A model generated the notes under the pieces. The model ran no database searches. It was not told where the DNA came from and worked only from the letters and a program-made list of their open reading frames with translations. Positions 7,844 to 42,400 of a stretch of DNA of 64,000 nt are shown here, in pieces. The translations under genes were made by a program, and so were the position numbers. Where the stretch lies: contig NZ_JACHMF010000001.1 in NCBI RefSeq assembly GCF_014204895.1, positions 7,316,001 to 7,380,000 on the forward strand. The letters are read 5' to 3'. Source of the DNA: Paractinoplanes abujensis (GTDB taxonomy: Bacteria > Actinomycetota > Actinomycetes > Mycobacteriales > Micromonosporaceae). Position 1 is the stretch's first letter, and every line of letters begins with the position of its first letter.

Positions 7844-7869
7844 CTCAGGTGATGAAGACGACAACCGAT
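7844..7869 (+). promoter_or_regulatory. Candidate FliA-type promoter of the cheA operon
   Basis: CTCA at 7844-7847, 16 nt, then ACCGAT at 7864-7869, 36 bp before the cheA GTG. It differs from the other flagellar copies only in the first base of the -10 element (A for G). Weaker than the others for that reason. Confidence 0.55.
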
Positions 7870-7905
7870 GAGGGCCTTGGAACGCCGAGCAGGAGGTAAC
7901 GAAGC

Positions 7906-10266
7906 GTGGAAGATCTTGGTGAGATCGTTGGCGAATTCCTCATGGAAAGCCACGAGAACCTGGACCAGATCGACCGGGACCTGGTCGAGCTCGAGCAGGA
8001 CCCGAACTCGCGGGACCTGATCTCGCGCATCTTCCGGGCGATCCACACGATCAAGGGCACCAGCGGCTTCCTGGCCTTCAGCCGCCTCGAGAAGCTGGCC
8101 CACGCGGGCGAGTCGCTGCTGTCGAAGCTGCGCGACGGCGTCATGCCGGTCACCCCGACCACGATCACCACCCTGCTCGCCACCATCGACGGTGTGCGCT
8201 CGATCCTCTCGGCGATCGAGGAGACGCAGGCCGAGGGTGATGTCGACATCGACAGCATCATCGCCCAGGTCAACGCGCAGATGAACGCCGACCCGGCGGC
8301 CGACGCCCCCGCCGCCGATGCCCCCGCCGCCGACGCCGCCCCGGCGGCCGAGGCCGAACCGGAGCGGCTCGACGAGACGGCGTCCCGCCCGGCCCCCGAG
8401 CCGGTCGACAACCAGCGCAAGCCGATTGGCGAGATCCTCGTCGAGACCGGCGCCGCGCAGGCCTCCGACGTCGGCTCCGCGCTGGCCCAGCAGATCGAGG
8501 GCGACGAACGCAAGCTCGGCACGATCCTGCTCGACGAGGGCAAGGCCCAGCCGGCCGCGGTCAGCGAGGCGCTGCAGGCCCAGACACCCAAGCGCAGCAT
8601 CGCCGACAGCGCGATCCGCGTCGACGTCGACCTGCTGGACACGCTGATGAACATGGTCGGCGAGCTCGTGCTGGCCCGTAACCAGCTGGTCCGCGGTGTG
8701 ATGGAGACCGGCGACGCCACTCTCGTCCGCAGCGCCCAGCGGCTCGGCATGATCACCAGTGAGCTGCAAGAGGGCATCATGAAGACCCGGATGCAGCCCA
8801 TCGAGCACATCTGGTCGAAGCTGCCCCGAGTCGTCCGCGACCTCAGCCAGTCGCTGGGCAAGCAGGTCCAGCTGGTCATGCAGGGCAAGGAGACCGAGCT
8901 CGACCGCAGCCTGCTCGAGGCGGTCAAGGACCCGCTGACCCACCTGGTGCGCAACGCGGTCGACCACGGCATCGAGAATCCGGACCAGCGGACCGCGGCC
9001 GGCAAGGGCCCCGAGGGCACCCTCACGCTGCGCGCCTATCACGAGGGCGGGCACGTGGCGGTCGAGGTGGCCGACGACGGCGCCGGCCTCAACGTCGAGC
9101 GGATCGCGCAGAAGGCGGTCGAGAACGGCCTGCTGCGCGCCGACCAGATCCCCAACATGGACCGCCGCGACATCATGGCGATGGTCTTCCAGCCCGGCTT
9201 CTCGACCGCGGCCAAGGTCACCAACGTCTCCGGCCGCGGCGTCGGCATGGACGTGGTCAAGACCAACATCGAGAACATCGGCGGCGCGGTCAGCGTCGAC
9301 TCCAAGCCCGGCGAGGGCACGGTCTGGCGGCTCACCATCCCGCTCACGCTGGCCATCATCCAGGCCCTCACCGTCGACTGCGGCGATCAGCGTTACGTGA
9401 TCCCGCAGGTCGCGGTGCTGGAGCTGGTCTTCATCGACGGCCAGTCGACCAAGATCGAGTACGCCTCGGGCGCGCCCGTCTACCGGCTCCGCGGCAAACT
9501 TCTTCCCCTCGTCCGCCTGGATCGCGCGCTCGGTCTCGAGGTGGGCGGCGACCAGGGCGTCTACATCATGGTGCTGCAGGCCGACGGCAGGCGTTTCGGC
9601 CTGGTCGTCGACCGGGTGCTCAACACCGAGGAAGTCGTGGTCAAGGCGCTCAACTCCCGGTTCAAGGACATCGGCCTGTACGCCGGGGCGACCATCCTGG
9701 GCGACGGCAAGGTGGGCCTGATCCTCGACGTCTCGTCGCTGGCCCGGCGCAGCCACCTGGCCGCCGATGCCGAGCGGCAGAACCTGGAGGCCTCGTCGCG
9801 GGCCTCCGGTGCCGGTGGCACGGGTGAGCGGCTGCTGGTCACCGCGGTCGGCGAGCGCCGGGTGGCGATCCCGCTGGACACGGTCACCCGGCTCGAGGAG
9901 TTCCCGCGCGACCGGATCGAGCACGCCGGCTCCCGCGAGGTCGTGCAGTACCGCGGCCAGATCCTGCCCCTGGTGCGGTTGTCGCACCTGCTCGGGGCGT
10001 ACGGGGAGGAACCGGAGGGCGACAACGTCTCGGTCGTCGTCTACAGCGAAGGCGCCAAGAGTGTGGCGCTGGTGGTCGACCGGATCGTGGACATCGCCGA
10101 GAACTCGACCACGGCCCGCCGCGACGCCGAGGAGGACGGCCTGGTCGGCACCGCGGTCATCCAGCAACGGGTGACCGAGTTGCTGGACGTACGGCGGGCG
10201 ATCCTGGCGGCCGACCCGAACTTCTACACCGATCTGGAAAACGACGAACTGCTGGTGGAGGCCTGA
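7906..10266 (+). CDS. cheA: Chemotaxis histidine kinase CheA with two CheW-like domains
   Basis: A 786-aa kinase that autophosphorylates in response to receptor arrays and passes phosphate to CheY and CheB. The HPt domain (1-~110) has His47 in AIHTIKGTSGF. After an Ala/Asp/Pro linker (~127-170), where P2 would lie, there is instead a tandem repeat: PIGEILVETGAAQASDVGSA (from 173) and KLGTILLDEGKAQPAAVSEA (from 203). Then come the dimerisation helices, the ATPase (HLVRNAVDHGIEN, DDGAGL, GRGVGMDVVK) and two consecutive CheW-like domains (~490-620 and ~640-775). The GTG at 7906 has AGGAGG upstream. It begins a tightly packed operon running to 15356. Confidence 0.97.
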   Translation: MEDLGEIVGEFLMESHENLDQIDRDLVELEQDPNSRDLISRIFRAIHTIKGTSGFLAFSRLEKLAHAGESLLSKLRDGVMPVTPTTITTLLATIDGVRSILSAIEETQAEGDVDIDSIIAQVNAQMNADPAADAPAADAPAADAAPAAEAEPERLDETASRPAPEPVDNQRKPIGEILVETGAAQASDVGSALAQQIEGDERKLGTILLDEGKAQPAAVSEALQAQTPKRSIADSAIRVDVDLLDTLMNMVGELVLARNQLVRGVMETGDATLVRSAQRLGMITSELQEGIMKTRMQPIEHIWSKLPRVVRDLSQSLGKQVQLVMQGKETELDRSLLEAVKDPLTHLVRNAVDHGIENPDQRTAAGKGPEGTLTLRAYHEGGHVAVEVADDGAGLNVERIAQKAVENGLLRADQIPNMDRRDIMAMVFQPGFSTAAKVTNVSGRGVGMDVVKTNIENIGGAVSVDSKPGEGTVWRLTIPLTLAIIQALTVDCGDQRYVIPQVAVLELVFIDGQSTKIEYASGAPVYRLRGKLLPLVRLDRALGLEVGGDQGVYIMVLQADGRRFGLVVDRVLNTEEVVVKALNSRFKDIGLYAGATILGDGKVGLILDVSSLARRSHLAADAERQNLEASSRASGAGGTGERLLVTAVGERRVAIPLDTVTRLEEFPRDRIEHAGSREVVQYRGQILPLVRLSHLLGAYGEEPEGDNVSVVVYSEGAKSVALVVDRIVDIAENSTTARRDAEEDGLVGTAVIQQRVTELLDVRRAILAADPNFYTDLENDELLVEA

Positions 10267-10267
10267 G

Positions 10268-10705
10268 ATGGCGAGCCGTCAGTTCGCCACCTTCGAGGTG
10301 GCCGAACAGCTCTTCGGCGTCGAGGTGCACACGGTGCAGGAGGTGCTCTCCTACAACGAGTACACCCCTGTGCCGCTCGCGCCCCCGGCCATCGGCGGGC
10401 TCTTCAACCTGCGAGGCCAGGTGATCGCCGCGGTCGACCTGCGGGTCCAGCTCGGCCTGGCCCGCAAGGAGCTCGAGGGCCCGGTGATGAACGTGATTCT
10501 GCGCGGCGACGGCGAGCCGGTCAGTCTCGTGGTGGACCGGATCGGCGAGGTGGTCGACCTCGACGACGACACGTTCGAGCCGCCGCCCGACACGCTCAGC
10601 GGACCCACTCGCGACCTGGTCGTGGGCACGTTCAAACTGGACGGCCGGCTGATGCTGGCCCTCGACGTGAACGCGGCCGTCGACACGTACCGCGCCACGA
10701 CCTGA
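10268..10705 (+). CDS. cheW: Chemotaxis adaptor CheW
   Basis: A 145-aa single CheW domain that couples chemoreceptors to CheA. QFATFEVAEQLFGVEVHTVQ, the conserved NLRGQVIAAVDLR and SLVVDRIGEVVDL are all present, and the length matches CheW. The ATG lies one base after the cheA stop, so the two are translated together. With the two CheW-like domains already on CheA, the array has at least three adaptor modules. Confidence 0.95.
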   Translation: MASRQFATFEVAEQLFGVEVHTVQEVLSYNEYTPVPLAPPAIGGLFNLRGQVIAAVDLRVQLGLARKELEGPVMNVILRGDGEPVSLVVDRIGEVVDLDDDTFEPPPDTLSGPTRDLVVGTFKLDGRLMLALDVNAAVDTYRATT

Positions 10706-11577
10706 TGTACAGCCTCGTCAGCGCCCCGGTGCTCGGCTTCGACCTGACTCGCCTCACCGGCGGGTCGGCCACGGCCGAGGTCGTGCTGCGCGGCCTGCGG
10801 TTGCAGGCGGCCGACCTCCCGCTGCTGGCCGAACGGCTGCCGGACGAGGACGCGCGCGGACCGCTCTGGGTCGAGGTGGAGAGCGCAGCCCGCCGGATGC
10901 CGTCGCTCAAGGGCCTGAACAAGGACGACGCGGCCGGCAGCCTCGCTCTCGTCGAGCGCGCGCCGATCGGCACGGTTGACGCCCTGCTGACCTGCCTGCG
11001 GTACGACGTGATGGCGTGGACCTGGTCGGGCACGGGCCGCGACGCCCAGCAGTCCGAGGTCGCGGCCGCGGCCACCGCCCTGATCTGCGACGCCGCCGTG
11101 GCCAGCTATCTGCGCGAGGTGCTCGACGCCGACACCCGGCGCCGGCTCGGGGCGGGCTGGGTCGCGGCCATGCGCAAGCTGCCGGTCGGCGCGCCGATCG
11201 ACCTGGGCCCGCACCACTACACGGTCTCGGCCCTGCTCGATCGGCTGCGCTCGCTGCGGTCGAACGATCTGAGCCGGTTGATGGCCTCGGCCGACGACGC
11301 CCGCCGCAACACCGGGGGCTGGTCCCCTGCAGTGCATTCGGCGTCCTGGGCGGCTTATCTGTCGGATCGGGTCCGTACGGCCGCCGCGGCGCAGATGCTG
11401 TTGGTACAGGCCGTCGACACGGCCGCCATTCCGTTGGCCGACCGGGCCGGCGGGGTGTGGAACATGCTCAGCGGCGCGGTGCAGGCGCTCGTGGTGCGGG
11501 ATCTGCTCGACACCTCGACCGCACACCGGCTGCTCGCCCCCGTCGTGGCCGCGCTCGGCCCCGCGTGGCTGGGTTAG
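10705..11577 (+). CDS. Unrecognised protein of the chemotaxis operon
   Basis: A 290-aa product that I cannot assign to a family. It overlaps the cheW stop by one base (TGATG) and is followed after 11 bp by cheB, so it is part of the operon. The sequence looks largely alpha-helical and Ala/Leu/Arg-rich, with no signal peptide, no membrane segment and no P-loop. Notable stretches are GPLWVEVESAARRMPSLKGL, LRYDVMAWTWSGTGRDA and HSASWAAYLSDRVRTAAAAQ. Its place suggests an array or CheB/CheR accessory protein; this is inference from context only. Confidence 0.8.
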   Translation: MYSLVSAPVLGFDLTRLTGGSATAEVVLRGLRLQAADLPLLAERLPDEDARGPLWVEVESAARRMPSLKGLNKDDAAGSLALVERAPIGTVDALLTCLRYDVMAWTWSGTGRDAQQSEVAAAATALICDAAVASYLREVLDADTRRRLGAGWVAAMRKLPVGAPIDLGPHHYTVSALLDRLRSLRSNDLSRLMASADDARRNTGGWSPAVHSASWAAYLSDRVRTAAAAQMLLVQAVDTAAIPLADRAGGVWNMLSGAVQALVVRDLLDTSTAHRLLAPVVAALGPAWLG

Positions 11578-11588
11578 GAGGTGGCCAG

Positions 11589-14860: not shown

Positions 14861-14867
14861 TTACGAC

Positions 14868-15356
14868 ATGTCTGACGTAACGGTTCTTCCTGGCACCCTG
14901 GCCGTCCGCAACCTTTTCGAGGATCTGCTCGGCCGGGAGGTGACCGTCAGCCCCGGTGAGCCTCTCAGCGCCGATGAGATTCCCACCTCGACGGTCGCGA
15001 TTTTCGTCGACTCGGCCCAGAACATCTATGCCGTGCTCGGGATGGAGCTGGCCCTGGCGGCCAACGCCGGCGCCGCGCTCGGCCTGCTGCCCGCCGGTGC
15101 GGCCGAGGACAGCATCGACGACAAGCAGCTCTACCCCAACCTGGCCGAGAACGTGGGCGAGCTCTGCAACGTGCTGACCAGCCTGCTCAACCGTGAGGGG
15201 GGCCCGCACATCAAGCTCCACCAGGTCGTCTATCCGGGTGAGCCGCTGCCCGGCGACGCCCGGGCCCACCTGATGGCGCTCGGCCGGCGCGTCGACCTGC
15301 TCGTCGACGTCAACCGGTACGGCAAGGGCAAGCTCAGCCTTTCGCTGGCGCCCTGA
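14868..15356 (+). CDS. Divergent CheX/CheC-like protein, last gene of the che operon
   Basis: A 162-aa product, 7 bp after the second CheY-like gene. It is not an obvious family member, but its element order parallels the CheX at 14016: paired strands (STVAIFVDSAQNIYAVLGME), a helix, then a long helix with E-x2-N as Glu98-Asn101 (ENVGELCNVLTSLLN), then strands at the end (RRVDLLVDVNRYGKGKLSLS). I therefore infer a CheX-like phosphatase or its inactive partner. The ATG at 14868 was chosen because the protein begins cleanly there. An intrinsic terminator follows directly. Confidence 0.65.
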   Translation: MSDVTVLPGTLAVRNLFEDLLGREVTVSPGEPLSADEIPTSTVAIFVDSAQNIYAVLGMELALAANAGAALGLLPAGAAEDSIDDKQLYPNLAENVGELCNVLTSLLNREGGPHIKLHQVVYPGEPLPGDARAHLMALGRRVDLLVDVNRYGKGKLSLSLAP

Positions 15357-15427: not shown

Positions 15428-15453
15428 CTAAGCAAATTGCCGATCCGGCCGAA
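15428..15453 (+). promoter_or_regulatory. Candidate FliA-type promoter of flgD-flgE
   Basis: CTAA at 15428-15431, 16 nt, GCCGAA at 15448-15453. It lies between the che terminator and the flgD ATG (37 bp downstream), where a promoter is required. Confidence 0.7.
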
Positions 15454-17306: not shown

Positions 17307-17354
17307 GTCGTCGTTCGACGCCAAGGTCTGCACCCGTACGACCACCGGTTCGAT

Positions 17355-17381: not shown

Positions 17382-17442
17382 ACACATGTCGAAGGCCACG
17401 GACGGCCGGCCAGCCAGGAACAACACCACCACCCAAGGACGG

Positions 17443-18531: not shown

Positions 18532-19548
18532 ATGAGCGGTGGCGGCGGTAAGCGCAAGAAGCCTCATGAGGAGCACGAGGAGCACGTCAACCATGAGCGC
18601 TGGCTCGTGTCGTACGCCGACATGCTGACCCTGCTGTTCGTACTCTTCGTGGTTCTGTACTCCATGAGCGACGTCAACATGAAGAAGTTCGCCCAGCTCG
18701 CCTCGGGTCTGTCGTCCGGTTTCGGCGCTCAGAGCGTCGCCTTCCAGGGCCAGACCGGGCCGATGGACGGCTCCGGCAACAGTGCCGAGATCGTGCAGAT
18801 CGACCCGGGCGCCAACCCGGGCGACGGCAAGGCGGGCAACTCCAACCTGACCGCTCAGCAGAAGGAGGCGGTCAAGGCCGCGATGGCGGCCGAGGACCGT
18901 AAGAAGGCTTCGCAGAATGCGGAAGCCGCCACCAAGGAAGCCGAGAACCTCAAGAAGATCGAGAACAAGATCTCCGATGCCCTGGCCGCGCAGAAGCTGC
19001 TCGGCTCGGTGCAGTTCACCATCGACCGGCGTGGCCTGGTCGTCACCATCCTGACCAACGAGGTGGTGTTCGCCGGCAACCGGGCCGACCTGCAGCCCGG
19101 CGGTAAGAAGATCCTCGACGCCATTGCCCCGTCCCTGGTCAAGCTGCCGAACAACATCGAGGTCGACGGCAACACCAACCAGCTCAAGGCCAAGACCACC
19201 TTCTACCCCAGCGGCTGGGAGCTCAGCGCGGCCCGCGCCTCCACCACGGTGCGATACCTGGGAAACCACGGCATCGCCAAGAACCGGATGAGCGCGGTCG
19301 GTTTCTCCGACACCAAGCCACTGATCAACCCGTCCGACCCACGTTCGATCACCATGAACCGCCGCGTGGACATCGTGGTGCTGACAACGCTCAGCGCCGA
19401 CCAGGCGGCACTGCTTCCGGCCGCGGCCGGGGCCGACAACAAACTGCACCCGGGACAAACCTCAGCTGCAGCCAAGTCGGCTCAACAGGCCGAAACGCAG
19501 GCCGATAACAACAGCGAAGCCAACAACACCAACCCGACGCAAGACTGA
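18532..19548 (+). CDS. motB: Flagellar stator protein MotB
   Basis: A 338-aa partner of MotA. The short cytoplasmic N-terminus is rich in His/Glu/Lys. The single membrane helix starts at ~26 and carries the ion-accepting Asp30 (SYADMLTLLFVLFVVLYS). A long periplasmic linker with a charged helix (~100-145) leads to the OmpA-like peptidoglycan-binding domain (~150-290; IDRRGLVVTILTNEVVFAG, LSAARASTTVRYL, NRRVDIVVLTT). The C-terminal ~40 residues are Ala/Gln/Asn-rich. I chose the ATG at 18532; the frame is open further upstream inside motA. Confidence 0.95.
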   Translation: MSGGGGKRKKPHEEHEEHVNHERWLVSYADMLTLLFVLFVVLYSMSDVNMKKFAQLASGLSSGFGAQSVAFQGQTGPMDGSGNSAEIVQIDPGANPGDGKAGNSNLTAQQKEAVKAAMAAEDRKKASQNAEAATKEAENLKKIENKISDALAAQKLLGSVQFTIDRRGLVVTILTNEVVFAGNRADLQPGGKKILDAIAPSLVKLPNNIEVDGNTNQLKAKTTFYPSGWELSAARASTTVRYLGNHGIAKNRMSAVGFSDTKPLINPSDPRSITMNRRVDIVVLTTLSADQAALLPAAAGADNKLHPGQTSAAAKSAQQAETQADNNSEANNTNPTQD

Positions 19549-20103: not shown

Positions 20104-20129
20104 CTCAGCCGTTCCGGAAACGAGCCGAT
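20104..20129 (+). promoter_or_regulatory. Candidate FliA-type promoter of the fliM operon
   Basis: CTCA at 20104-20107, exactly 16 nt, GCCGAT at 20124-20129. The fliM GTG is at 20139, so the predicted transcript start falls within a few bases of the start codon and the fliM mRNA would be nearly leaderless. Confidence 0.7.
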
Positions 20130-21840: not shown

Positions 21841-22263
21841 TTGTTCGAGATCGTCCTGCGGATCGGCTTCTCGCTCTTCATCATCCTCGGGATGATGTGG
21901 GGCCTGGCCCGGCTCATCCGGCGTCCGCTGCTCGGGCGCGGGCACGGGACGCTGGAGGTGCTCAACCGCCAGCAACTCTCCCGGGGCGCCGCGGTGGCCG
22001 TGGTCAAGGTGGCCGACCGCGCGATGATCCTCGGCGTCACCGACCAGCAGGTGAGCCTGCTCGGCGAGGCCGAGGTCGAGATCTTCGAGCACCATCACGC
22101 CGAGCACCGCGACCACCTGCAGGTAGCGGATGAACTGGCCGGCGGGCCCCGCGATCTACCCGGACGGCATCCCGCGGCATCCCGGCTCGAGGGTTCGGTC
22201 CTCTCGCCGCGCACCTGGAAGACGGCGCTGGAGTTCCTCCGCGATCGGACCAGTCACCGATGA
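21841..22263 (+). CDS. fliO: FliO-like flagellar export protein
   Basis: A 140-aa single-pass membrane protein. One hydrophobic helix (~3-22, LFEIVLRIGFSLFIILGMMW) is followed by the FliO cytoplasmic domain (LEVLNRQQLSRGAAVAVVKV, MILGVTDQQVSLLGE). FliO helps assemble the FliP ring. The start is a TTG at 21841 with GAGGGG 8 nt upstream, directly after the fliN stop; the frame is open far upstream, but that part is antisense or out of frame to fliM and fliN. The stop overlaps fliP by 4 bp. Confidence 0.85.
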   Translation: MFEIVLRIGFSLFIILGMMWGLARLIRRPLLGRGHGTLEVLNRQQLSRGAAVAVVKVADRAMILGVTDQQVSLLGEAEVEIFEHHHAEHRDHLQVADELAGGPRDLPGRHPAASRLEGSVLSPRTWKTALEFLRDRTSHR

Positions 22264-23117
22264 TCAAGCGCGCGTTGTTCCTGTTGCTGGCGAGCCTGGG
22301 GTTGGCGCTCGTGCTCCTGCCCGGGGCGGCGGGCGCGGAGCCCACCCGTACGCCGGCCGCACCGGACCGCGCGCCCGCGACAGTGGTGGTCGCCCTGCCG
22401 GAACGAGCCCCCGCGCCGCCCAGCCCGCCGGCCCGTCCCAGCCGGCCCAACATCAACGTCAACATCAACGGCACCAACCCGGACGGCAGTCGCCCGGCCA
22501 CGTCGCTGATCATCATGCTGGGCCTGACCGTGCTCTCGGTTGCGCCCGCGTTGCTGCTGCTCTGCACGTGTTTCACCAAGATCTTCATGGTGCTCGGCAT
22601 CACCCGCAACGCGCTCGGCCTGACCAGCATGCCGCCCAACCAGGTGCTGGCCGGCCTGGCCGTGTTCATCAGCCTGTTCATCATGGGACCGACCGTGTCG
22701 CAGATGAACGAACAGGGCGTGCAGCCCTATCTGAAGGGCGACAAGAGCCAGTCCCAGGCGTTCGAGGACGGCGTGAAGCCGTTGCGCGACTTCATGTGGA
22801 AGACCACCCGCGAGGACGAGGTGGCGCTCATGATCAAGCTGTCGGGCGACGAGCGGCCGCGGAACCGGGACGACGTCGAGCTGACCACGCTGGTGCCCGC
22901 GTTCGTGCTGTCCGAGCTGCGCGCCGCCTTCATCATCGGCTTCGTCATCTTCATCCCGTTCCTGCTGATCGACATGGTCGTCTCGGCGTCCCTGATGTCT
23001 CTGGGCATGATGATGCTGCCCCCGGTGACAGTGGCTCTGCCCTTCAAGCTCCTGTTGTTCGTGCTGGTCAACGGGTGGGGGTTGATCCTGACGGCGCTGG
23101 TGGCGTCGTACCGATGA
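22260..23117 (+). CDS. fliP: Flagellar type III export gate protein FliP
   Basis: A 285-aa polytopic membrane protein, the main ring subunit of the export gate. It has a signal peptide (1-~26), then a Pro-rich region with NINVNINGTNPDG, then the family core: LLLLCTCFTKIFMVLGITRN, TSMPPNQVLAGLAVFISLFI, and VLSELRAAFIIGFVIFIPFL. The C-terminus ends normally at ILTALVASYR. The ATG overlaps the fliO stop; the TGA overlaps the fliR ATG. There is therefore no room for fliQ, which normally lies here. Confidence 0.95.
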   Translation: MIKRALFLLLASLGLALVLLPGAAGAEPTRTPAAPDRAPATVVVALPERAPAPPSPPARPSRPNINVNINGTNPDGSRPATSLIIMLGLTVLSVAPALLLLCTCFTKIFMVLGITRNALGLTSMPPNQVLAGLAVFISLFIMGPTVSQMNEQGVQPYLKGDKSQSQAFEDGVKPLRDFMWKTTREDEVALMIKLSGDERPRNRDDVELTTLVPAFVLSELRAAFIIGFVIFIPFLLIDMVVSASLMSLGMMMLPPVTVALPFKLLLFVLVNGWGLILTALVASYR

Positions 23118-23878
23118 ACTTCAGCGTCCCGACCGCCGAACTGCTCGCCCTGATGCTCGGCGCGGCCCGTACGGGGGCCTGGATGATGGTCTGCCCGCCG
23201 TTCAACTCGCGGCTCATCCCGGGCACGGTCAAGGCGTTGCTCTCGGTCGGGCTGACCCTGCCGCTGTTCCCCTACCTGCGCGGCACGCTCCCGTCGCTGC
23301 AGACGTCGGACATCATCTTCAGCGTCCTGATCCAGGTCTTCGTGGGTGCCGGGCTCGGCTTCGTCACCGCGGTGATGTTCGCCGCGTTGCAGGCCGCCGG
23401 TGACCTGATCGACCTGTTCGGCGGTTTCACACTGGCCATGGGTTACGACCCGCTCTCGCAGAACCAGAGCTCGATCTTCGGCCGCGTCTACAACCTCATC
23501 GCGGTCACCCTGCTGTTCGCCACCGACGGCCATCAGCTCGTCCTGCGCGGCTTCCTGCAGACCTTCAAGACCGTGCCGCTCAATTGGACCTTCACGTCCG
23601 GCACCTTCACCGAGCTGCTGATCAGAGGGATCGGTGAGCTGTTCCTGGCCGCCGTGCAGATCGCCGGTCCGTTGATCGCCGTCCTGTTCCTCACCGATGT
23701 GGCGTTCGGCCTGCTCAACCGGGTCGCGCCGGCGCTCAACGCGTTCCAGCTGGGCTTCCCGGCCAAGATTTTCATGGTGCTGCTCATCTCCGGTATCGCC
23801 ATCTCCGCCCTGCCCGGCGTGGTCGACTCGATCGTGGAGCGCGCGGTCAACGCCGTCGTTCAGCTCACCGGCACCTAG
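23114..23878 (+). CDS. fliR: Flagellar type III export gate protein FliR
   Basis: A 254-aa polytopic protein, the single FliR subunit that closes the FliPQR helical gate. Typical segments are LMLGAARTGAWMMVCPPFNS, VFVGAGLGFVTAVMFAALQA, GDLIDLFGGFTLAMGYDPLS and RVAPALNAFQLGFPAKIFMV. The length matches stand-alone FliR, and neither it nor FliP is long enough to include a fused FliQ. It starts inside the fliP stop codon (ATGA). Confidence 0.95.
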   Translation: MNFSVPTAELLALMLGAARTGAWMMVCPPFNSRLIPGTVKALLSVGLTLPLFPYLRGTLPSLQTSDIIFSVLIQVFVGAGLGFVTAVMFAALQAAGDLIDLFGGFTLAMGYDPLSQNQSSIFGRVYNLIAVTLLFATDGHQLVLRGFLQTFKTVPLNWTFTSGTFTELLIRGIGELFLAAVQIAGPLIAVLFLTDVAFGLLNRVAPALNAFQLGFPAKIFMVLLISGIAISALPGVVDSIVERAVNAVVQLTGT

Positions 23879-25089: not shown

Positions 25090-25115
25090 CTCAGTGGCGG
25101 CGACAGATCGCCGAA
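25090..25115 (+). promoter_or_regulatory. Candidate FliA-type promoter of flhA
   Basis: CTCA at 25090-25093, exactly 16 nt, GCCGAA at 25110-25115, 66 bp before the flhA GTG in the 164-bp flhB-flhA gap. Confidence 0.75.
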
Positions 25116-25181: not shown

Positions 25182-27236
25182 GTGAAGAACCGCAACATCA
25201 GCAAACTTGCCGTGCCCGTCGGGGTCGTCGGCATCGTCCTCATGATGGTCGTGCCCTTGCCGACCTTCCTGCTGGACATGTTGATCGCGCTCAACATCAC
25301 CGCGGCCCTGCTGATCATGCTGACCAGCATGTTCGTCCAGAAACCACTGGACTTCTCGATCTTCCCGGCCCTGCTGCTGGTAGCCACCCTGTTCCGCCTC
25401 GCGCTCAACATCAGCGCGACCCGCCTGGTGCTGAGCGAGGGCGACGCGGGCAAGGTGATCCACGCGTTCGGCAGCTTCGTCGTCGGTGGCAACCTCGTCA
25501 TCGGCCTCGTCATCTTCCTGATCCTGGTGATCGTCCAGATGGTCGTGGTCACCAAGGGCGCCGAGCGGGTGGCCGAGGTCGGCGCCCGCTTCACCCTCGA
25601 CGCCATGCCCGGCAAGCAGATGGCGATCGACGCCGATCTCAACGCCGGCCTGATCGACGAGGACCAGGCCAAGAAGCGCCGGGCCGAGGTGGCCGCGGAG
25701 GCCGAGTTCTACGGCGCCATGGACGGTGGTTCCAAGTTCGTCAAGGGCGACGCCATCGCCGCCGTCATCATCACGCTGATCAACCTGGTCGGCGGGTTCG
25801 CGATCGGCGTGGCCCAGCAGGGCATGGCGGCCGGCGACGCGATGAACCACTACAGCCTGCTGAGCATCGGCGACGGCCTGGTCTCGCAGATCCCGGCCCT
25901 GCTGCTCTCGGTGGCCACCGGTCTGATCGTGACCCGCTCGGCCACCTCGGGCGACATGGGTTCGACGGTCACCACCCAGCTCAGCCAGAACAAGCTCGCG
26001 CTGCGCATCGCCGGCGGCGCCTCGCTGGCCCTCTGCGTCATCCCGGGCCTGCCCAAGGTTCCCTTCCTGGTGGTCGGCGCGGCAGTCCTGATCGCCGCGC
26101 AGAAGATCAAGGACCCGGTGCCGGAGGAAGAGGTGGCGGCGGCCGCGGCGGCCGGCGAGGCGGTCGAGATGCCGCCCGCGGACTCGCCGGAGCAGCTGCT
26201 GGGCGAGATGCGCGTCGACCCGCTCGAACTCGCCCTCTCACCCGACCTCGTCGACCTGGTCGACGCCAGCAGCGGGGACCTGCTCGACCGGGTCCGGGCG
26301 TTGCGCCGCAAGATGGCCATGGAACTCGGCGTGATCATGCCGCCGGTGCGCACGCGAGACGATCTCGACCTGCCGCTTTCCTCGTACGCCATCCGGATCT
26401 CCGGCACCGACGCGGGCACCGGCGAGGCGCCGCCCGGCACGGTGCTGGCCATCGGCGACGGGTTGCAGGGCCTGCCCGGCAAGGCCGGGGTCGAGCCGGT
26501 GTTCGGCCTGCCCGGCAAGTGGGTGCCGTCCGAACTGCACTACCAGGCCGAACTGTCCGGCGCGACGGTGGTCGACCGGGCCAGCGTGATCATCACGCAC
26601 CTGGCCGAGGTCGTCCGGACCAACGCCAGCCGGCTGCTCGGCCGCGAGGACGTGCGCGCGCTGACCGAGACGGTCAAGCGCACCCACCCGGTCGTGGTCG
26701 AGGAGCTGACGCCCGCGGTGCTCAGCCTCGGCCAGATCCAGAAAGTGCTCCAAGGGCTCCTCGACGAGGGCGTACCGATCCGCGACCTGGTACGCATCTT
26801 CGAGGCGCTCTCCCTTCGGGCGAAGGTCTCCGTCGACCAGGACAGCCTGGTCGAGGCGGCCCGCGCGGCGCTGGGTCCCGCTATCGCGGCCCAGTACACG
26901 ACCGCCGGCCGGCTCACGGTGATCACGCTCGACCCCATGCTCGAGCAGCAACTGCTCGAATCTCTGCGGCCCAGTGAGACGGGGGCCTTCATGGCGATCG
27001 ACGGCATGCGTGCCGAGGCGATCGTCAGCGAGGCGGCCCGGCTCACCGAGACCGCGGAACAGCAGGGGCTGGCCCCCGTGCTGGCCTGCTCGCCACAACT
27101 GCGGCTGCCACTGATGCGACTGCTGCGCGCCGGATCGCGCCGGGTCCAGGTGCTGTCGTACGGCGAAATCTCTGGTTCCACAGCACAGATCGAAACGATT
27201 GGGGTGGTCAACGGTGCCTACGCGGGTGCTGCTTGA
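25182..27236 (+). CDS. flhA: Flagellar type III export protein FlhA
   Basis: A 684-aa protein that forms the nonameric export ring and docks substrates and chaperones. About eight membrane segments occupy the first ~310 residues, with the FHIPEP-type signature as TLFRLALNISATRLVLSEGD and the loop ERVAEVGARFTLDAMPGKQM. The C-terminal cytoplasmic domain (~340-684) includes DLLDRVRALRRKMAMELGVI and RTHPVVVEELTPAVLSLGQI. The GTG at 25182 has TGGAAGGTG upstream. The last 23 bp overlap the FlhF-like gene. Confidence 0.96.
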   Translation: MKNRNISKLAVPVGVVGIVLMMVVPLPTFLLDMLIALNITAALLIMLTSMFVQKPLDFSIFPALLLVATLFRLALNISATRLVLSEGDAGKVIHAFGSFVVGGNLVIGLVIFLILVIVQMVVVTKGAERVAEVGARFTLDAMPGKQMAIDADLNAGLIDEDQAKKRRAEVAAEAEFYGAMDGGSKFVKGDAIAAVIITLINLVGGFAIGVAQQGMAAGDAMNHYSLLSIGDGLVSQIPALLLSVATGLIVTRSATSGDMGSTVTTQLSQNKLALRIAGGASLALCVIPGLPKVPFLVVGAAVLIAAQKIKDPVPEEEVAAAAAAGEAVEMPPADSPEQLLGEMRVDPLELALSPDLVDLVDASSGDLLDRVRALRRKMAMELGVIMPPVRTRDDLDLPLSSYAIRISGTDAGTGEAPPGTVLAIGDGLQGLPGKAGVEPVFGLPGKWVPSELHYQAELSGATVVDRASVIITHLAEVVRTNASRLLGREDVRALTETVKRTHPVVVEELTPAVLSLGQIQKVLQGLLDEGVPIRDLVRIFEALSLRAKVSVDQDSLVEAARAALGPAIAAQYTTAGRLTVITLDPMLEQQLLESLRPSETGAFMAIDGMRAEAIVSEAARLTETAEQQGLAPVLACSPQLRLPLMRLLRAGSRRVQVLSYGEISGSTAQIETIGVVNGAYAGAA

Positions 27237-28839
27237 GGGACCGGCCATCGAGCCGCTGCTGGCTCAGGTGCGCGATGAGTACGGCTCCCGTGTCCGGATC
27301 ATCTCCGCCGACAAGGTCCGCAGTGGCGGCGTCGGTGGTTTCTTCGCCAAACAGCATTACGAGCTGTCGGTCGAGGTGCCGGACCCGAACGAGGACAGGA
27401 ATGACATGACTTCACGGATGAAGACGACCGACACCGGCCAGCACAGCCTGGAACGGCTCCTCGAGCGAGCCGAGTCGCAGGACCGGATGGACGACCCGGG
27501 CCGGGCGGCACCACGCCCGTTCGGCGGGAGCGCCTCACCGCGCTCGGTCACGCCGGCGTCGTTCGGCATGACCCGGCCCGCCGAGACCCCGTCCCGGCCC
27601 GCCGCCGAGAGCGGGTTCGGTGCCGACGAGGGCCGCAGCGCCGCGTTCGGGGACACCGGGGCCGCGTTCGCCGAGCTGATGGCCGGCCTCAACGGCGGTG
27701 ACCAGCTCACGTCGCGCCCCAAGCCGGCGCCGCGGGAGGAGCCCGCCCCGACCGTACGGCCGTTCCGCCCGGCCGCGGCCAGCGAGTCGCCGGTCAACGT
27801 GGCCCGGACGCCCGCACCGGCGGCAGTCCCGGCTCCGCCCGCCCCGGCCCCGGCCGTGGTGGCCCCGCAGTCGCCCGCCGCTCCGTCCTTCGTGACCGAG
27901 CCGCCCGCACCGGCCCCGGCCATCGCGCCGACGTCACCCGCGCCGGTCTCGCCCGCGCCCCGCCTCGCCGACCGCATCGGTGGGCTGGCCGCCAGCGAGA
28001 TCGAGATCGACGAGGTGCCGCCCGCGCCCGAGCCGGTCGCCGAGACGCCGGCCCCCGTCGAGACGTACGGGTTCCAGCCGGCCTCGCCGGTCTCGGCCGT
28101 TCCGGCCCCGGCCGCCGCCACGGCCCCGCCGGTCGCCGACAACGAGCCGGTGGTGCGGAACCTGATGTCGGTGGGCATGCCGGAGAACATGGCCCGCCAG
28201 ATCACCGGCAGCGACACCTACGCCGGCGTGCTGAGCGTGCTGGCCGCGCGGCCCAGCGCCCCGGGCATCCCGGACGGGCCGGGCGAGATCCTGGTGCTCG
28301 CGGGTGACATCAACCTGGGGGTCACCATCGGCCGCCAGCTGCTCGACCAGATCGGCGTGCCGGAGAACCACCTGCTGCTGGCCGCGCAGTCGACGGCCGG
28401 CACCGGGCTCCACTCGTCGCGGCTGATCTCGACGCCCGAGGCGGCCGAGAGCCGCACCGAGAAGCTGCACAGCGCCGAGGAGCCCTGGGTCGTCGTGCTC
28501 GAGGCGCCGGTGGGCGGCACCGACCCGATCTGGGTCAACGAGATGTGCGACGCGATCGGGGCCACCGCGGTCTGGGCGGTCGTCGACGCCACCCGCAAGA
28601 CCGCTGACAGCGCCCGGCACCTGCGGACGCTCGGCGAGGTGGAGTCGCTGGTGGTGCACGGCGTCGAGCTGACCGGTGACCCGGCCTCCGTGCTCGGCCT
28701 GGACCTGCCGATCTACTCGCTGGACGGCAAGCCGGCCACCCCGCACGCCTGGGCCGCCATGCTCTGCGCGCGGATCGCGTCCGACGTCATGCCGGTCGCC
28801 GCGGCCCCGCGGCGCGTCACCCGCACGGTGCGGCAGTGA
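27214..28839 (+). CDS. FlhF-like protein lacking the GTPase P-loop
   Basis: A 541-aa product starting at a GTG inside the flhA 3' end. Residues 1-~55 resemble the FlhF N-terminal (B) domain: LLAQVRDEYGSRVRIISADK then VRSGGVGGFFAKQHYELSVE. A long Pro/Ala-rich disordered region spans ~90-305. The C-terminal ~230 residues have the FlhF order of segments (GEILVLAGDINLGVTIGRQL at the P-loop position, then AVWAVVDATRKTADSARHL), but the glycine-rich GxxGxGKT motif is missing, so GTP hydrolysis is unlikely. Position after flhA is the usual flhF site. I infer a degenerate FlhF that may still place or count flagella. Confidence 0.72.
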   Translation: MPTRVLLEGPAIEPLLAQVRDEYGSRVRIISADKVRSGGVGGFFAKQHYELSVEVPDPNEDRNDMTSRMKTTDTGQHSLERLLERAESQDRMDDPGRAAPRPFGGSASPRSVTPASFGMTRPAETPSRPAAESGFGADEGRSAAFGDTGAAFAELMAGLNGGDQLTSRPKPAPREEPAPTVRPFRPAAASESPVNVARTPAPAAVPAPPAPAPAVVAPQSPAAPSFVTEPPAPAPAIAPTSPAPVSPAPRLADRIGGLAASEIEIDEVPPAPEPVAETPAPVETYGFQPASPVSAVPAPAAATAPPVADNEPVVRNLMSVGMPENMARQITGSDTYAGVLSVLAARPSAPGIPDGPGEILVLAGDINLGVTIGRQLLDQIGVPENHLLLAAQSTAGTGLHSSRLISTPEAAESRTEKLHSAEEPWVVVLEAPVGGTDPIWVNEMCDAIGATAVWAVVDATRKTADSARHLRTLGEVESLVVHGVELTGDPASVLGLDLPIYSLDGKPATPHAWAAMLCARIASDVMPVAAAPRRVTRTVRQ

Positions 28840-29084
28840 TTCGTCCATCGGTCCTGCTGTTCGCGCTCCTGATGAGCGCGCCGGCGCTGTACCGCTACGT
28901 GCTCGACCAGGTCGACGTCACCGAGGTTCTGATCCGGTTCGTTATCGCCGTGCCGATCGCCGCCCTGCTGCTCGCGGGGTTGCGCTTCGTCACCGCGGGA
29001 TACGGCCGGCCGGAGGGGAAGCCGGCAGGCACCCCGGTGACACCGAGCCCGCTCGACGCGCCGGAGGCACAGAAGCCGGCCTGA
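28836..29084 (+). CDS. Small two-helix membrane protein downstream of the FlhF-like gene
   Basis: An 82-aa product starting at a GTG that overlaps the previous stop by 4 bp, hence translationally coupled. Two hydrophobic segments (~4-20 and ~32-50) are followed by a Pro-rich tail. I do not recognise a family. It is not FliQ: it lacks FliQ's conserved core and the second helix is too short. In operon position it stands where flhG would be. Function unknown. Confidence 0.7.
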   Translation: MIRPSVLLFALLMSAPALYRYVLDQVDVTEVLIRFVIAVPIAALLLAGLRFVTAGYGRPEGKPAGTPVTPSPLDAPEAQKPA

Positions 29085-32572: not shown

Positions 32573-32590
32573 GCACCCGAGCTGCAACTG
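32573..32590. promoter_or_regulatory. Direct repeat resembling a TcrA box, fliI-fliJ gap
   Basis: GCACCCG-AGCT-GCAACTG on the plus strand: one exact and one 6-of-7 half site of GCA(A/C)CCG, spaced by 4. It lies 5 bp upstream of the fliJ promoter -35 but in the opposite orientation to the flgB box and reaching to within 2 bp of the fliI stop. Tentative. Confidence 0.45.
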
Positions 32591-35605: not shown

Positions 35606-35691
35606 CGCGTACTCCCTCTTCAACCGCAGCGGAAACAAGCCGTGGGACGGCTGTGGCGGCGGCCGGGCTCAGCCGGCCGCCGCGCGAAGGG

Positions 35692-37320: not shown

Positions 37321-37321
37321 G

Positions 37322-37687: not shown

Positions 37688-37695
37688 CGTCTACC

Positions 37696-38088: not shown

Positions 38089-38090
38089 CG

Positions 38091-38438: not shown

Positions 38439-38513
38439 AGCAGCTCCTTGTGTAGGTCCAAGGCCGCCGATCCGTGGCATTTCGGTGAGCGATCCGTCGC
38501 TCGTACATTGCAG

Positions 38514-38539
38514 TTCGGCTCCCGCGCCGATCCGCTGAG
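38514..38539 (-). promoter_or_regulatory. Candidate FliA-type promoter of the flgB operon
   Basis: On the minus strand CTCA (38539-38536), 16 nt, GCCGAA (38519-38514), about 75 bp before the flgB GTG. The -35 context CTCAGCGGATCGG nearly matches flgN's CTCAGCGGAGTCGG. Confidence 0.75.
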
Positions 38540-38546
38540 CGTCAGA

Positions 38547-38564
38547 CGGTTGCCAGCAGGTTGC
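38547..38564 (-). promoter_or_regulatory. TcrA-box-like direct repeat upstream of flgB
   Basis: Minus strand GCAACCT-GCTG-GCAACCG: two heptamers spaced by 4, one exact and one 6 of 7 to GCA(A/C)CCG. It lies 7 bp upstream of the -35 element, where an activator would sit. The consensus is recalled from Actinoplanes literature, not checked here. Confidence 0.6.
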
Positions 38565-38574
38565 TGAAACGCGA

Positions 38575-38614
38575 GAACGCCCCGGGGCCCCGCATAGGGG
38601 GTCCCGAGGCGTTC
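38575..38614 (-). terminator. Long hairpin after the fliD-fliS unit
   Basis: Arms 38575-38591 and 38598-38614 pair over 17 positions with one mismatch and one G-T, loop GCATAG. It lies 12 bp after the stop of the minus-strand gene at 38626 and upstream of the flgB control region, so it insulates the two units. Confidence 0.8.
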
Positions 38615-38625
38615 CGGCTCGGTCG

Positions 38626-38958
38626 TCACATGGCCCGGTCGACGTAGACGGGTCGTTTGACCGCCTCTCCCGTCTCGATCCGGGTCGTCATCGTCATCTG
38701 CTGGCGGGTCGCGGTCATCCGCCGGGCGATCTCCTCGGCCGCCTTGAGCTGGCGGGTCAGGATCTCGTCGGCTCGCGGCTTGAGCTCCAGCGGCAGCGCA
38801 CCCAGTTCCGTCGGCGCCTTCCACAGGCTGGCCGGCGGCGTCTCGGCGTGGCGGTGCTCGTCGGCCAGCATGGCCTCGATCGTCGCCACGTCCAGCTCGA
38901 GCTCGTCCAGCGCGTCGCTCCAGGCGTGCCCCCAGTTCCCGCCGCTCATGGTGCTCAT
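38626..38958 (-). CDS. Uncharacterised protein in the fliT position
   Basis: A 110-aa acidic protein, probably helical (WSDALDELELDVATIEAMLA, LTRQLKAAEEIARRMTATRQ). It lies 7 bp downstream of fliS at the end of the fliD-fliS unit, the place where fliT (chaperone of FliD) occurs in many flagellar loci. I see no clear sequence match to FliT, so a chaperone role is inferred from position, size and helical character. The ATG at 38958 could be replaced by one at 38949. Confidence 0.65.
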   Translation of the reverse strand: MSTMSGGNWGHAWSDALDELELDVATIEAMLADEHRHAETPPASLWKAPTELGALPLELKPRADEILTRQLKAAEEIARRMTATRQQMTMTTRIETGEAVKRPVYVDRAM

Positions 38959-38965
38959 CCGCTCG

Positions 38966-39352: not shown

Positions 39353-39398
39353 CGGTCTCCTAGGTCAGGGCCCTGCGACGGCTGGTCGGGGCGGTGGA

Positions 39399-40790: not shown

Positions 40791-40822
40791 CGGAGCCTGC
40801 CTTTCACTGCCTGGAAAATGAA

Positions 40823-40855
40823 GCGGGGGCAGCCGCTTTTGACGGCTACCCCCAC
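40823..40855 (-). terminator. Hairpin terminator between fliC and fliD
   Basis: GCGGGGGCAGCCG (40823-40835) pairs with CGGCTACCCCCAC (40843-40855) with two mismatches around a CTTTTGA loop. It lies after the fliC stop on the minus strand; partial read-through could feed fliD. Confidence 0.75.
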
Positions 40856-40905
40856 CTATTCGGTCACTTGCCGATGAGATTCAGTTGCTGACGGTGGCAG
40901 TTCGG

Positions 40906-42186
40906 TTAGCGCAGCAGCGAGAGAACGTTCTGCGCCGACTGGTTGGCCTGGGACAGCATCGAGGTGCCGGCCTGGGTCAGGATCTGCGACCGGGTGAAGG
41001 ACACCATCTCCTGGGCCATGTCGGTGTCACGGATACGCGACTCCGACGCGGACAGGTTCTCGACCGCCACGTTGAGGTTGTTGATGGTGTGCTCGAAGCG
41101 GTTCTGCACGGCACCGAGCGTGGCCCGGCTGTCGGTGACCGACGACAGGGCCTTGTCGATCGCCTTGAGCGCGGCGTCGGGGTCCTTGGTCAGGTCGAGG
41201 GCCGCGGTGCCGAGCGTCTCGGAGTCGACGCCACCGATCGCGATGCCGATCTTCTGGTTGGCGTTCGCGCCGACCTGGAACTTGCCGGTGTTGCCGCCGG
41301 TGGAGTTCAGCGTGGTCAGGTTGACGCCCAGACCGCCGGAGTTGACACCCGTGGTGGTGTCGACGCTGCTGGCCACACCGATGTTCGTGTCGTTGGTGAT
41401 CGAGAAGTCACCGCTGCCGTTGACGTTGAACGTGGTGCGGTTCTGCGAGTCGACCTTGGCCGACATGGTGACCTCGTTGCCCTGGAAGCCGGCCGCCTTC
41501 AGGGCCTTCTCGAGGCCCGCGTTGACCGCCTTGGCCAGGTCCTGCGGCGACGCGTCGGCCGCCACCTTGTCCACCGAGACCTGGATCGGGGTGCCACCGG
41601 CGGAGATGTCGGTGCCGTTGGGTGACTTCGTCAGGCCACCCACCTTCTCCAGCGAGAAGGTGAACGTGCCGCTGCCGGTGACGCCGGACGGCAGCGAGGC
41701 CGCGGCGCCGCTGGTGGTGGCGGCCATCTGGGTGCCGGCGGCCTGCTTGGTGCTGCCGAACGTGCCGTCGAGCAGGCTCTGCTTGCCGAACGCCGTGCTC
41801 TTGCCGATCCGGTCGAGCTCGGCGTTGAGCTGGCCCATCTCCTTGTTGGCGGCCTCGGCGGCCGACGAGTCGGTGGCGCCCGAGTTGGCCGCCTGCACCG
41901 ACAGGTCGCGCATACGCTGCAGGATGGCGGTGGTCTCGTTGAGCGCACCTTCAGCGGTCTGCGCGACCGAGACGCCGTCCTGCGTGTTGCGCACGGCGAC
42001 CTTGAGCCCGCCGACCTGCGAGCGCAGGCCTTCGGAGATCGAGAGGCCGGCCGCGTCGTCGGCGGCCCGGTTGATGCGGAAACCACTGGACAACTTCTCC
42101 AGCGACTTCGACATCTGGCTGTCGGTGACCGACAGGTTCCGGTAGGCGTTCTGCGCGGCGATGTTCTGGTTGATGCGAAGACCCAT
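40906..42186 (-). CDS. fliC: Flagellin FliC
   Basis: A 426-aa flagellin, the only one in the window. N-terminal D0/D1: GLRINQNIAAQNAYRNLSVT, SLEKLSSGFRINRAADDAAG and LSISEGLRSQVGGLKVAVRN. C-terminal: FEHTINNLNVAVENLSASES and SQANQSAQNVLSLLR. The middle (~170-335) is the exposed variable part. I chose the ATG at 42186 with AAGGAGG upstream; upstream open codons are leader RNA. The leader carries a CsrA-type hairpin and the promoter fits FliA, so both transcription and translation appear controlled. Confidence 0.97.
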   Translation of the reverse strand: MGLRINQNIAAQNAYRNLSVTDSQMSKSLEKLSSGFRINRAADDAAGLSISEGLRSQVGGLKVAVRNTQDGVSVAQTAEGALNETTAILQRMRDLSVQAANSGATDSSAAEAANKEMGQLNAELDRIGKSTAFGKQSLLDGTFGSTKQAAGTQMAATTSGAAASLPSGVTGSGTFTFSLEKVGGLTKSPNGTDISAGGTPIQVSVDKVAADASPQDLAKAVNAGLEKALKAAGFQGNEVTMSAKVDSQNRTTFNVNGSGDFSITNDTNIGVASSVDTTTGVNSGGLGVNLTTLNSTGGNTGKFQVGANANQKIGIAIGGVDSETLGTAALDLTKDPDAALKAIDKALSSVTDSRATLGAVQNRFEHTINNLNVAVENLSASESRIRDTDMAQEMVSFTRSQILTQAGTSMLSQANQSAQNVLSLLR

Positions 42187-42191
42187 GAGTG

Positions 42192-42234
42192 CTTCCTCCT
42201 TGAGGGGTCTTGGAGCGGCCCATCCATGGGGCCG
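42192..42234 (-). promoter_or_regulatory. Candidate CsrA-binding leader of fliC
   Basis: In the fliC leader (minus strand) CGGCCC and GGGCCG form a 6-bp stem (42234-42229 with 42221-42216) whose 7-nt loop CATGGAT presents GGA. Fifteen bases further, the Shine-Dalgarno AAGGAGGAAG (42201-42192) holds two more GGA. A GGA-loop hairpin plus a GGA-bearing Shine-Dalgarno is the arrangement CsrA uses on B. subtilis hag mRNA. Confidence 0.65.
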
Positions 42235-42252
42235 TGGCGTTACGCCAGGCCG

Positions 42253-42279
42253 ATCGGCGCGGTGCCGACGGTTCATGAG
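42253..42279 (-). promoter_or_regulatory. Candidate FliA-type promoter of fliC
   Basis: On the minus strand CTCA (42279-42276), 17 nt, GCCGAT (42258-42253). It predicts a leader of about 60 nt that contains the GGA-loop hairpin. Confidence 0.6.
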
Positions 42280-42374
42280 CAGTCTGCGAGATTTCCCCCA
42301 CCATTTCCGGCGAATACGAAGAAACCCGAACGGAACTCACATGAACCCGGAATGCACCGGATCGGGGGAAATTC

Positions 42375-42400
42375 CTCAGCGGAGTCGGGGACGTGCCGAC
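42375..42400 (+). promoter_or_regulatory. Candidate FliA-type promoter of flgN-flgK-flgL-fliW-csrA
   Basis: CTCA at 42375-42378, 16 nt, GCCGAC at 42395-42400, 55 bp before flgN. A weak GCACCCG-like direct repeat (GAACCCG-GAAT-GCACCGG) lies upstream at 42343-42360. Confidence 0.7.

Follow-up and report, generated by a model that had tools for sequence, protein, structure and literature searches.

We describe here the transcriptional organization of the flagellar and chemotaxis gene cluster of Paractinoplanes abujensis, a soil bacterium with swimming spores, as it can be read from a stretch of 64,000 nucleotides (positions 7,316,001–7,380,000 of the 9.33-Mb single-contig genome) that we refer to as the window. 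A custom gene caller placed 70 genes in the window, among which Pfam labels che, flg, fli, flh, and mot genes together with fliW and csrA, and a search with FlhA returned Paractinoplanes ovalisporus as the closest named record at 98% identity. With operon limits inferred from gene spacing, the cluster falls into the presumed operons cheA to cheY2, flgD-flgE, flbD-motA-motB-fliL, fliM-N-O-P-R-flhB, flhA with two further genes, fliJ-lytA-fliK, flgB-flgC-fliE-F-G-H-I, fliC-fliD-fliS, and flgN-flgK-flgL-fliW-csrA, the last of which is closed by a terminator-like hairpin at 46045–46078. The first genes of these operons are preceded by motifs resembling the promoters of FliA-family (sigma-28) sigma factors, and one more such motif lies within an operon:

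7844–7869, plus strand: FliA-type promoter of the che operon (cheA at 7906), CTCA-16-ACCGAT
15428–15453, plus strand: FliA-type promoter of flgD-flgE, CTAA-16-GCCGAA
17355–17381, plus strand: FliA-type promoter of flbD-motA-motB-fliL, CTCA-17-GCCGAA
19481–19506, plus strand: possible internal FliA-type promoter upstream of fliL, within the end of motB, CTCA-16-GCCGAT
20104–20129, plus strand: FliA-type promoter of fliM-N-O-P-R-flhB, CTCA-16-GCCGAT
25090–25115, plus strand: FliA-type promoter of flhA and the two genes that follow it, CTCA-16-GCCGAA
32542–32567, minus strand: FliA-type promoter of fliJ-lytA-fliK, CTCA-16-GCCGAC
38514–38539, minus strand: FliA-type promoter of flgB-flgC-fliE-F-G-H-I, CTCA-16-GCCGAA
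42253–42279, minus strand: FliA-type promoter of fliC (with fliD and fliS downstream), CTCA-17-GCCGAT
42375–42400, plus strand: FliA-type promoter of flgN-flgK-flgL-fliW-csrA, CTCA-16-GCCGAC

When both strands of the window were scanned with the degenerate pattern CT[CA]A-N15-18-[GA]CCGA, 18 matches were obtained, i.e., nine sites that an original prediction made from the bare sequence had named, one further intergenic match, and eight matches inside genes. The scan bore out the coordinates and spacers of the nine named sites, which are all intergenic and end 10–76 bp upstream of the start codon of the first gene of a presumed operon. The prediction had also placed nearly all of them directly after a terminator or in an intergenic gap, but a scan for T-tailed terminators directly upstream of the nine sites found none; G+C-rich hairpins are visible upstream of flgD and fliM. 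All nine have spacers of 16 or 17 nucleotides, with GCCGA as −10 element in eight cases and ACCGA in one, and with CTCA as −35 element everywhere except for CTAA at flgD. Eleven of the 18 matches start no more than 110 bp upstream of a predicted gene start on their own strand, in a zone that makes up 6.0% of the two strands (binomial P = 8e-10), though the motif had been picked after inspection and conservation provides the independent test. No FliA-type site of their own was found for csrA, fliW, or the MCP gene at 46171.

For this test, cluster regions were taken from 29 of 35 genomes of the same genus, with the window itself excluded from the orthologue counts, and the motif was searched up to 140 bp upstream of each orthologue. 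The nine operon heads had it at 186 of their 227 orthologues, the internal genes at none of 810. Conservation was complete or nearly so at fliM (26/26), flgN (29/29), flgB (28/29), fliJ (25/27), and fliC (25/29) and lower at flbD (20/25), flgD (17/24), flhA (13/26), and cheA (3/12), with similar motif-to-start distances for each operon across the relatives. Individual sites even keep their particular form: with the window included, the −35 element at flgD is CTAA in all 18 sites found, the fliM site reads CTCA-16-GCCGAT in 27/27 cases, and the flgN site CTCA-16-GCCGAC in 30/30. Four further genes carry the motif at 28 of 108 orthologues (fliL 10/26, flhB 5/26, lytA 5/27, and fliD 8/29). Because the motif thus precedes these genes in some species, promoters seem to be gained and lost inside operons, and the match at 19481, whose −35 element lies 80 bp upstream of fliL, may be a further promoter of this kind. 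The prediction that basal-body, hook, filament, and chemotaxis genes share a single FliA-type promoter class is supported, the motor operon being covered as well, and we have high confidence that one class of promoters read by FliA extends across the cluster.

The same motif recurs beyond the genus. Of 393 genomes in the class, 48 contain FliM, and 40 of the 47 besides that of P. abujensis, representing 13 families, were compared with CT[CAT]A permitted as −35 element and a search distance of up to 250 bp. The motif was found at flbD in 36/39 genomes (11/12 families), at fliM in 24/40 (6/13 families), at flgB in 14/26 (5/11 families), and at flhA in 9/20 (2/9 families), with one of the 24 matches at fliM located at a distance of 141 bp and having an 18-bp spacer, while two others extend past the inferred start codon. 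Internal genes were free of it (motA 0/40, fliN 0/38, fliO 0/37, fliR 0/39, fliG 0/32, and flgC 0/28) or showed scattered matches (motB 2/40, lytA 2/26, fliF 1/31, and fliI 1/32). Seven of 39 flhB genes had a match 180–195 bp upstream, inside fliR, and these were not counted as promoters. Bacteria with the motif at flbD and often also at fliM include Nocardioides, Modestobacter, Geodermatophilus, Arthrobacter, Cryobacterium, and others, with more variation allowed in the −35 element. Because of this recurrence at flbD, fliM, flgB, and flhA, a sigma-28-type promoter upstream of rod, export-gate, and C-ring operons is not peculiar to Actinoplanes. A phylum-wide study of flagellar genes (PMC10746217) does not use the word "promoter" in its main text.

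The promoter array as such is already known from A. missouriensis, where Jang et al. (2016) reportedly mapped 11 start points with the promoter CTCA(N15-17)GCCGAA and located fliQ elsewhere than in the cluster. This form agrees with the CTCA −35 element found here, and in the window the gene caller placed no fliQ in the stretch from fliP to fliR (22260–23878). According to the available part of PMC8306008, 33 flagellar genes of A. missouriensis are transcribed simultaneously.

Regarding the factor that reads these promoters, the P. abujensis genome contains 16 matches to the FliA_WhiG family, three of which are strong (6e-56 to 7e-53, with one above the curated cut-off): paralogues A at 8.956 Mb and B at 8.960 Mb, 4 kb apart, and C at 9.133 Mb. 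The prediction was thus right to place the fliA gene outside the window, which holds no strong FliA-family gene. Its further proposal that one FliA-family sigma factor drives the locus fits the single promoter class, but a single factor cannot be claimed because the genome has three strong FliA-like genes. A fourth paralogue, D, is present in 19 of 20 same-genus relatives searched and was not found in the P. abujensis genome, which thus has three where they have four. In a midpoint-rooted tree of 50 sequences, the four paralogues form separate groups within a genus clade (support 96/90) that adjoins the FliA proteins of another family (f29), while the single WhiG included sits on a very long branch outside the other sequences. 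In the 15 other genomes compared in this respect, fliA lies 13–40 kb from fliM on the same contig. Three FliA-family sigma factors have likewise been described in A. missouriensis by Hashiguchi et al. 2020, as cited in the accessible text of PMC13293333; the relatives with four paralogues differ from this.

A second type of element subdivides the promoters. The TcrA box, given in the part of PMC12691653 available to us as the direct repeat GCA(A/C)CCG-n4-GCA(A/C)CCG, recurs next to three flagellar promoters of the window, and a candidate gene for the corresponding regulator lies at the edge of the cluster:

17330–17347, plus strand: TcrA-type direct repeat (two mismatches), 7 bp upstream of the flbD −35 element
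32573–32590, plus strand: TcrA-type direct repeat (one mismatch), inverted, 5 bp upstream of the fliJ −35 element
38547–38564, minus strand: TcrA-type direct repeat (one mismatch), 7 bp upstream of the flgB −35 element
7118–7816, plus strand: OmpR/PhoB-type response regulator, candidate TcrA, directly upstream of cheA

Mouri et al. (2018) are said to have described the TcrA regulon of A. missouriensis. The direct repeat found here is of the type given for that species, with one or two mismatches in the window, and in P. abujensis it adjoins a FliA-type −35 element at three flagellar operons. We searched the 60 bp upstream of the −35 element in the promoters of the genus, window included, and allowed up to two mismatches. 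Boxes were found at flgB in 29/29 promoters, at flbD in 21/22, at fliJ in 18/26 (inverted), and weakly at flgN (6/30), whereas none were found at cheA (4 promoters), flgD (18), fliL (11), fliM (27), flhB (5), flhA (14), lytA (5), fliD (8), or fliC (26); the controls gave 2/685 internal windows and 0.27% of shuffles. The gap between box and −35 element is 7 bp in all cases at flgB (29/29) and flbD (21/21) and 5 bp in 16/18 cases at fliJ. Boxes also occur within 300 bp upstream of 26 of 30 fliA paralogues of the genus (A 8/8, B 7/8, C 5/8, and D 6/6) compared with 2 of 20 FliA or WhiG genes (19 FliA, 1 WhiG) from elsewhere. Both of the latter are perfect boxes in genomes of family f29 (G251 and G105) that also encode a regulator of the 7118 type. 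Outside the genus, up to two mismatches being allowed, no box was found at flgB (0/14) and three at flbD (3/52), of which one is from Paractinoplanes, one from Pseudosporangium, and the third probably due to chance.

The regulator at 7118–7816 is 95–100% identical in the 12 other regions of the genus that reach the gene, several of which are partial, compared with 58–94% for full-length flagellin matches. In 20 genomes searched, it had matches of 98–99% in three of the genus, 63–64% in all four of family f29, and 42–50% in four others, with none in the remaining nine at E ≤ 1e-45. Because the gene occurs where the boxes occur, we consider it a candidate for TcrA. Our confidence is good that the boxes at the three operons and at fliA are real and moderate that they are bound by the product of this gene, as we predict. 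Searched genome-wide, the composite of TcrA box and FliA-type promoter had five matches with up to three mismatches versus two in the control, and the flgB site and a one-mismatch site at 9055652 alone look convincing. The latter (9055652–9055701 of the genome, plus strand) lies 10 bp upstream of the start codon of a putative lipoprotein gene, and a weaker composite with three mismatches (548033–548082, minus strand) precedes a putative GAF-like sensor, so labelled by reading of the sequence. Within the window but outside the flagellar locus, the further intergenic match at 51256–51280 (minus strand, CTAA-N16-ACCGA) has its −35 element 72 bp upstream of a small gene (50996–51208), and a TcrA-like box with one mismatch (51328–51345) lies another 48 bp upstream.

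At the post-transcriptional level, the cluster contains the genes of the CsrA-FliW system and, in three leaders, hairpins of CsrA type:

42216–42234, minus strand: hairpin of the fliC leader, CGGCCC-CATGGAT-GGGCCG, whose loop contains GGA
42194–42203, minus strand: Shine-Dalgarno region of fliC, TCAAGGAGGA, which may be a second CsrA-type site
17394–17407, plus strand: flbD leader hairpin GGCC-ACGGAC-GGCC (ANGGAN hexaloop, CsrA-type)
38487–38502, minus strand: flgB leader hairpin GAGCG-ACGGAT-CGCTC (ANGGAN hexaloop, CsrA-type)
38466–38478, minus strand: second GGA-loop hairpin of the flgB leader
45304–45702, plus strand: fliW
45792–46034, plus strand: csrA

CsrA and FliW were each found in 41/41 flagellated genomes and in 0/12 genomes outside the FliM-positive list, while FlgM was detected in none of the 41 flagellated genomes (E ≤ 0.01) by a search that was positive in 4 of 14 control genomes. 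This agrees with the accessible portions of PMC2587704 and PMC10746217, the former of which reports flgM as lacking from the flagellated Actinobacteria sequenced by its time.

A hairpin of at least five pairs with ANGGA in the loop is present in 30/30 fliC leaders of the genus (window included; shuffles 1.8%), in 28/30 flgB leaders, and in 21/26 flbD leaders, with lower counts at csrA (8/30), fliG (5/30), flhA (4/27), flgD (3/25), and others (at most one). CARGGA lies within 25 nucleotides of the fliC start in all 30 genus leaders, which hence have two GGA sites, one in the hairpin and one in the Shine-Dalgarno region. In a set of 31 fliC leaders, 30 of them from outside the genus, 21 had the sigma motif, 19 the ANGGA hairpin, and 12 CARGGA near the start. 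Aligned fliC leaders (59 in total, i.e., 29 of the genus including the window and 30 others) were given to RNAalifold with no structure supplied, and it returned the fliC hairpin alone. In this hairpin, 86.4% of cells pair, 47 cells are changed on both sides compared with 13.8 ± 3.1 in shuffles, and six pairs show such changes versus 4.5 in shuffles, with 23 of 500 shuffles attaining the observed number; the hairpin scores 0.352 for covariation, compared with 0.152 ± 0.015 for shuffles and at most 0.144 for slid partners. Its outermost pair is not formed in 31 of 56 sequences. Because relatedness weakens the shuffle control and the structure was written after the alignment had been viewed, we give most weight to RNAalifold and the slid control. 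At flbD, both-side changes are seen at four of five pairs.

The loop described for CsrA/RsmE sites is the ANGGAN hexaloop (PMC7652899, as far as its available text goes). Hairpins with this hexaloop and a stem of at least four pairs are frequent in the leaders of flbD (22/26 in the genus and 24/39 in the class), flgB (18/30 and 11/27), flhA (13/27 and 8/20), and fliC (21/30 in the genus and 40/59 on the alignment) and rare at flgD (0/25 and 4/33), fliM (1/27 and 1/40), and internal genes (16/923 and 9/574). Because hexaloop hairpins with stems of at least five pairs are not enriched in the window as a whole (one found versus a shuffle mean of 4.2), our argument is based on conservation of the leaders and not on counts within the window. 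Rfam gave no match at gathering scores.

As in Bacillus subtilis, where CsrA, FliW, and the flagellin Hag form a regulatory circuit, we find csrA, fliW, and flagellin genes and a flagellin leader with a GGA hairpin and a GGA over the Shine-Dalgarno sequence; different from that system, similar hairpins are also present at flgB and flbD and FlgM was not found, all of this at the level of sequence. Control of a flagellin leader by CsrA had been proposed for Kineococcus radiotolerans in 2008 (PMC2587704, in the part accessible to us) based on csrA adjoining flagellar genes and a Shine-Dalgarno site resembling BS2 of hag. That proposal concerned one site in one species, while the hairpin described here covaries across many genera.

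Taken together, we consider it likely that the cluster is governed by the nine FliA-type promoters, an additional layer of TcrA control at some operons, and a CsrA-FliW checkpoint on flagellin. The nine sites would be read by RNA polymerase that carries at least one of the three FliA paralogues, and a FliA-family (sigma-28/WhiG-like) factor would switch on nearly all flagellar and che operons together as in A. missouriensis. Because a TcrA-type repeat lies 5–7 bp upstream of their −35 elements, the operons of flgB (rod, MS ring, and export ATPase), flbD-mot, and fliJ-lytA-fliK probably need both TcrA and FliA, i.e., an AND gate, whereas fliM, flhA, flgD, fliC, and cheA would depend on FliA only. 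As most fliA genes in the genus likewise have a TcrA-type box upstream, TcrA would act in a feed-forward loop through fliA and directly on the flgB, flbD, and fliJ operons. CsrA probably binds the GGA-loop hairpins in the leader of fliC (and those of flgB and flbD), and FliW set free by flagellin export would relieve this hold as in the hag system. From gene presence and the conserved hairpins, we derive with moderate confidence that the flagellin checkpoint is supplied by CsrA-FliW in place of FlgM.

Several observations weigh against this explanation, and other readings of the same sites have to be considered. The −35 element of sigma-28 promoters in E. coli and B. subtilis is of the TAAA type, unlike the CTCA found here. 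The motif is short, eight of its 18 matches in the window lie inside genes, and genome-wide it matches 573 times compared with 279 times for the reversed control; we dropped a genome-wide regulon for this reason, as these numbers are inseparable without a full gene map. One might hence attribute all matches to chance or to coding sequence of a G+C-rich genome, but we find this hardly credible and reject it for the nine sites given the contrast between operon heads (186/227) and internal genes (0/810), the similar distances per operon, and the conservation in other families. Within the genus, the motif is absent from 9/12 cheA, 13/26 flhA, and 7/24 flgD orthologues, and in other families from fliM in 16/40 and flgB in 12/26 genomes as well as from all flgD (0/33) and fliJ (0/14) genes. 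The gaps at flhA, cheA, and flgD in many species, together with the TcrA boxes that mark out flgB, flbD, and fliJ, would also suit a normal hierarchy in which the FliA-type promoters are one of several start sites and other promoters mainly drive the early operons. We consider this improbable because no sigma-70-type match was found in 7001–47000, though by a scan poorly suited to actinobacteria, and because simultaneous transcription without hierarchy is described for A. missouriensis in the available portion of PMC8306008. It is less probable still that the promoters are read by a WhiG-type sigma factor instead of FliA. FliA and WhiG promoters are similar. The two factors share a protein family (TIGR02479), and PMC8325347, in the part at hand, assigns WhiG to Actinoplanes species and calls the Actinoplanes factors WhiG-like flagellar sigmas. 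However, no strong WhiG-type factor was found in the P. abujensis genome, where no gene scores as high as the strong WhiG-like matches (about 1e-80), and its three best family matches group with flagellar FliA in the tree.

Regarding the additional layers, the FliA paralogue B of P. abujensis itself lacks a TcrA box, and co-occurrence is the only argument for equating the 7118–7816 regulator with TcrA. CARGGA is not specific to fliC, being found also at flbD (26/26), fliN (25/27), and flgB (15/30); covariation at flgB is weak (three pairs with one both-side change); the fliC loop of P. abujensis has seven bases instead of six and its flbD stem has four pairs only; and 10 of the 59 fliC leaders lack even a 3-bp hairpin with an ANGGAN hexaloop. 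The leader hairpins might not be CsrA sites and could instead serve mRNA stability or another RNA-binding protein, as would fit the many stems longer than those of typical selected CsrA ligands (PMC7652899, accessible text). Although this alternative keeps appreciable weight, we think it unlikely given the match of the A-N-GGA-N loop to described CsrA/RsmE loops, the presence of CsrA and FliW in all flagellated genomes but none of the others, and the restriction of hexaloop hairpins to few flagellar leaders with rare occurrence elsewhere.

Some genes of the cluster have no match in Pfam or NCBIfam (10705–11577, 14940–15356, 28836–29084, and 38626–38958), and the gene at 27226–28839, 3' of flhA, shows a weak FlhF match only.

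Compared with the accessible reports on the A. missouriensis cluster, our analysis adds the subdivision of promoters by TcrA boxes, the conservation across families, and the leader hairpins, which suggests that the new part is the combined architecture of promoters, boxes, and hairpins. No earlier report was found of the covarying fliC hairpin, the flgB and flbD hairpins, or the cross-family promoter conservation, with the literature on TcrA details incompletely covered.

In textbooks, flagellar assembly exemplifies the transcriptional cascade, with sigma-28 and FlgM as its checkpoint. In a lineage with one promoter class for most operons and no FlgM detected, the question arises how order is kept. 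The original prediction had proposed one promoter class in place of a strict hierarchy, and its first half stands, though TcrA boxes at flgB, flbD, and fliJ and CsrA-type hairpins in three leaders speak against a uniform regime. Because of these boxes and the hairpins of fliC, flgB, and flbD, an activator and post-transcriptional control may set the order of assembly, and the available part of PMC8306008 likewise considers that the post-transcriptional level could matter in A. missouriensis. Tentatively, and with slightly more doubt than belief, we extend this to the flagellated Actinomycetes as a whole, in which the FlgM/sigma-28 checkpoint would have been replaced: early and late operons would be transcribed jointly from one FliA promoter class, and CsrA-FliW acting on conserved hairpins of fliC, flgB, and flbD (perhaps also flhA) would set the order post-transcriptionally, with the developmental regulator TcrA wired in twice in zoospore formers, i.e., at fliA and at the promoters of the basal-body, stator, and fliJ operons. 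Specific sites for mutation are offered by the hairpins and TcrA boxes.

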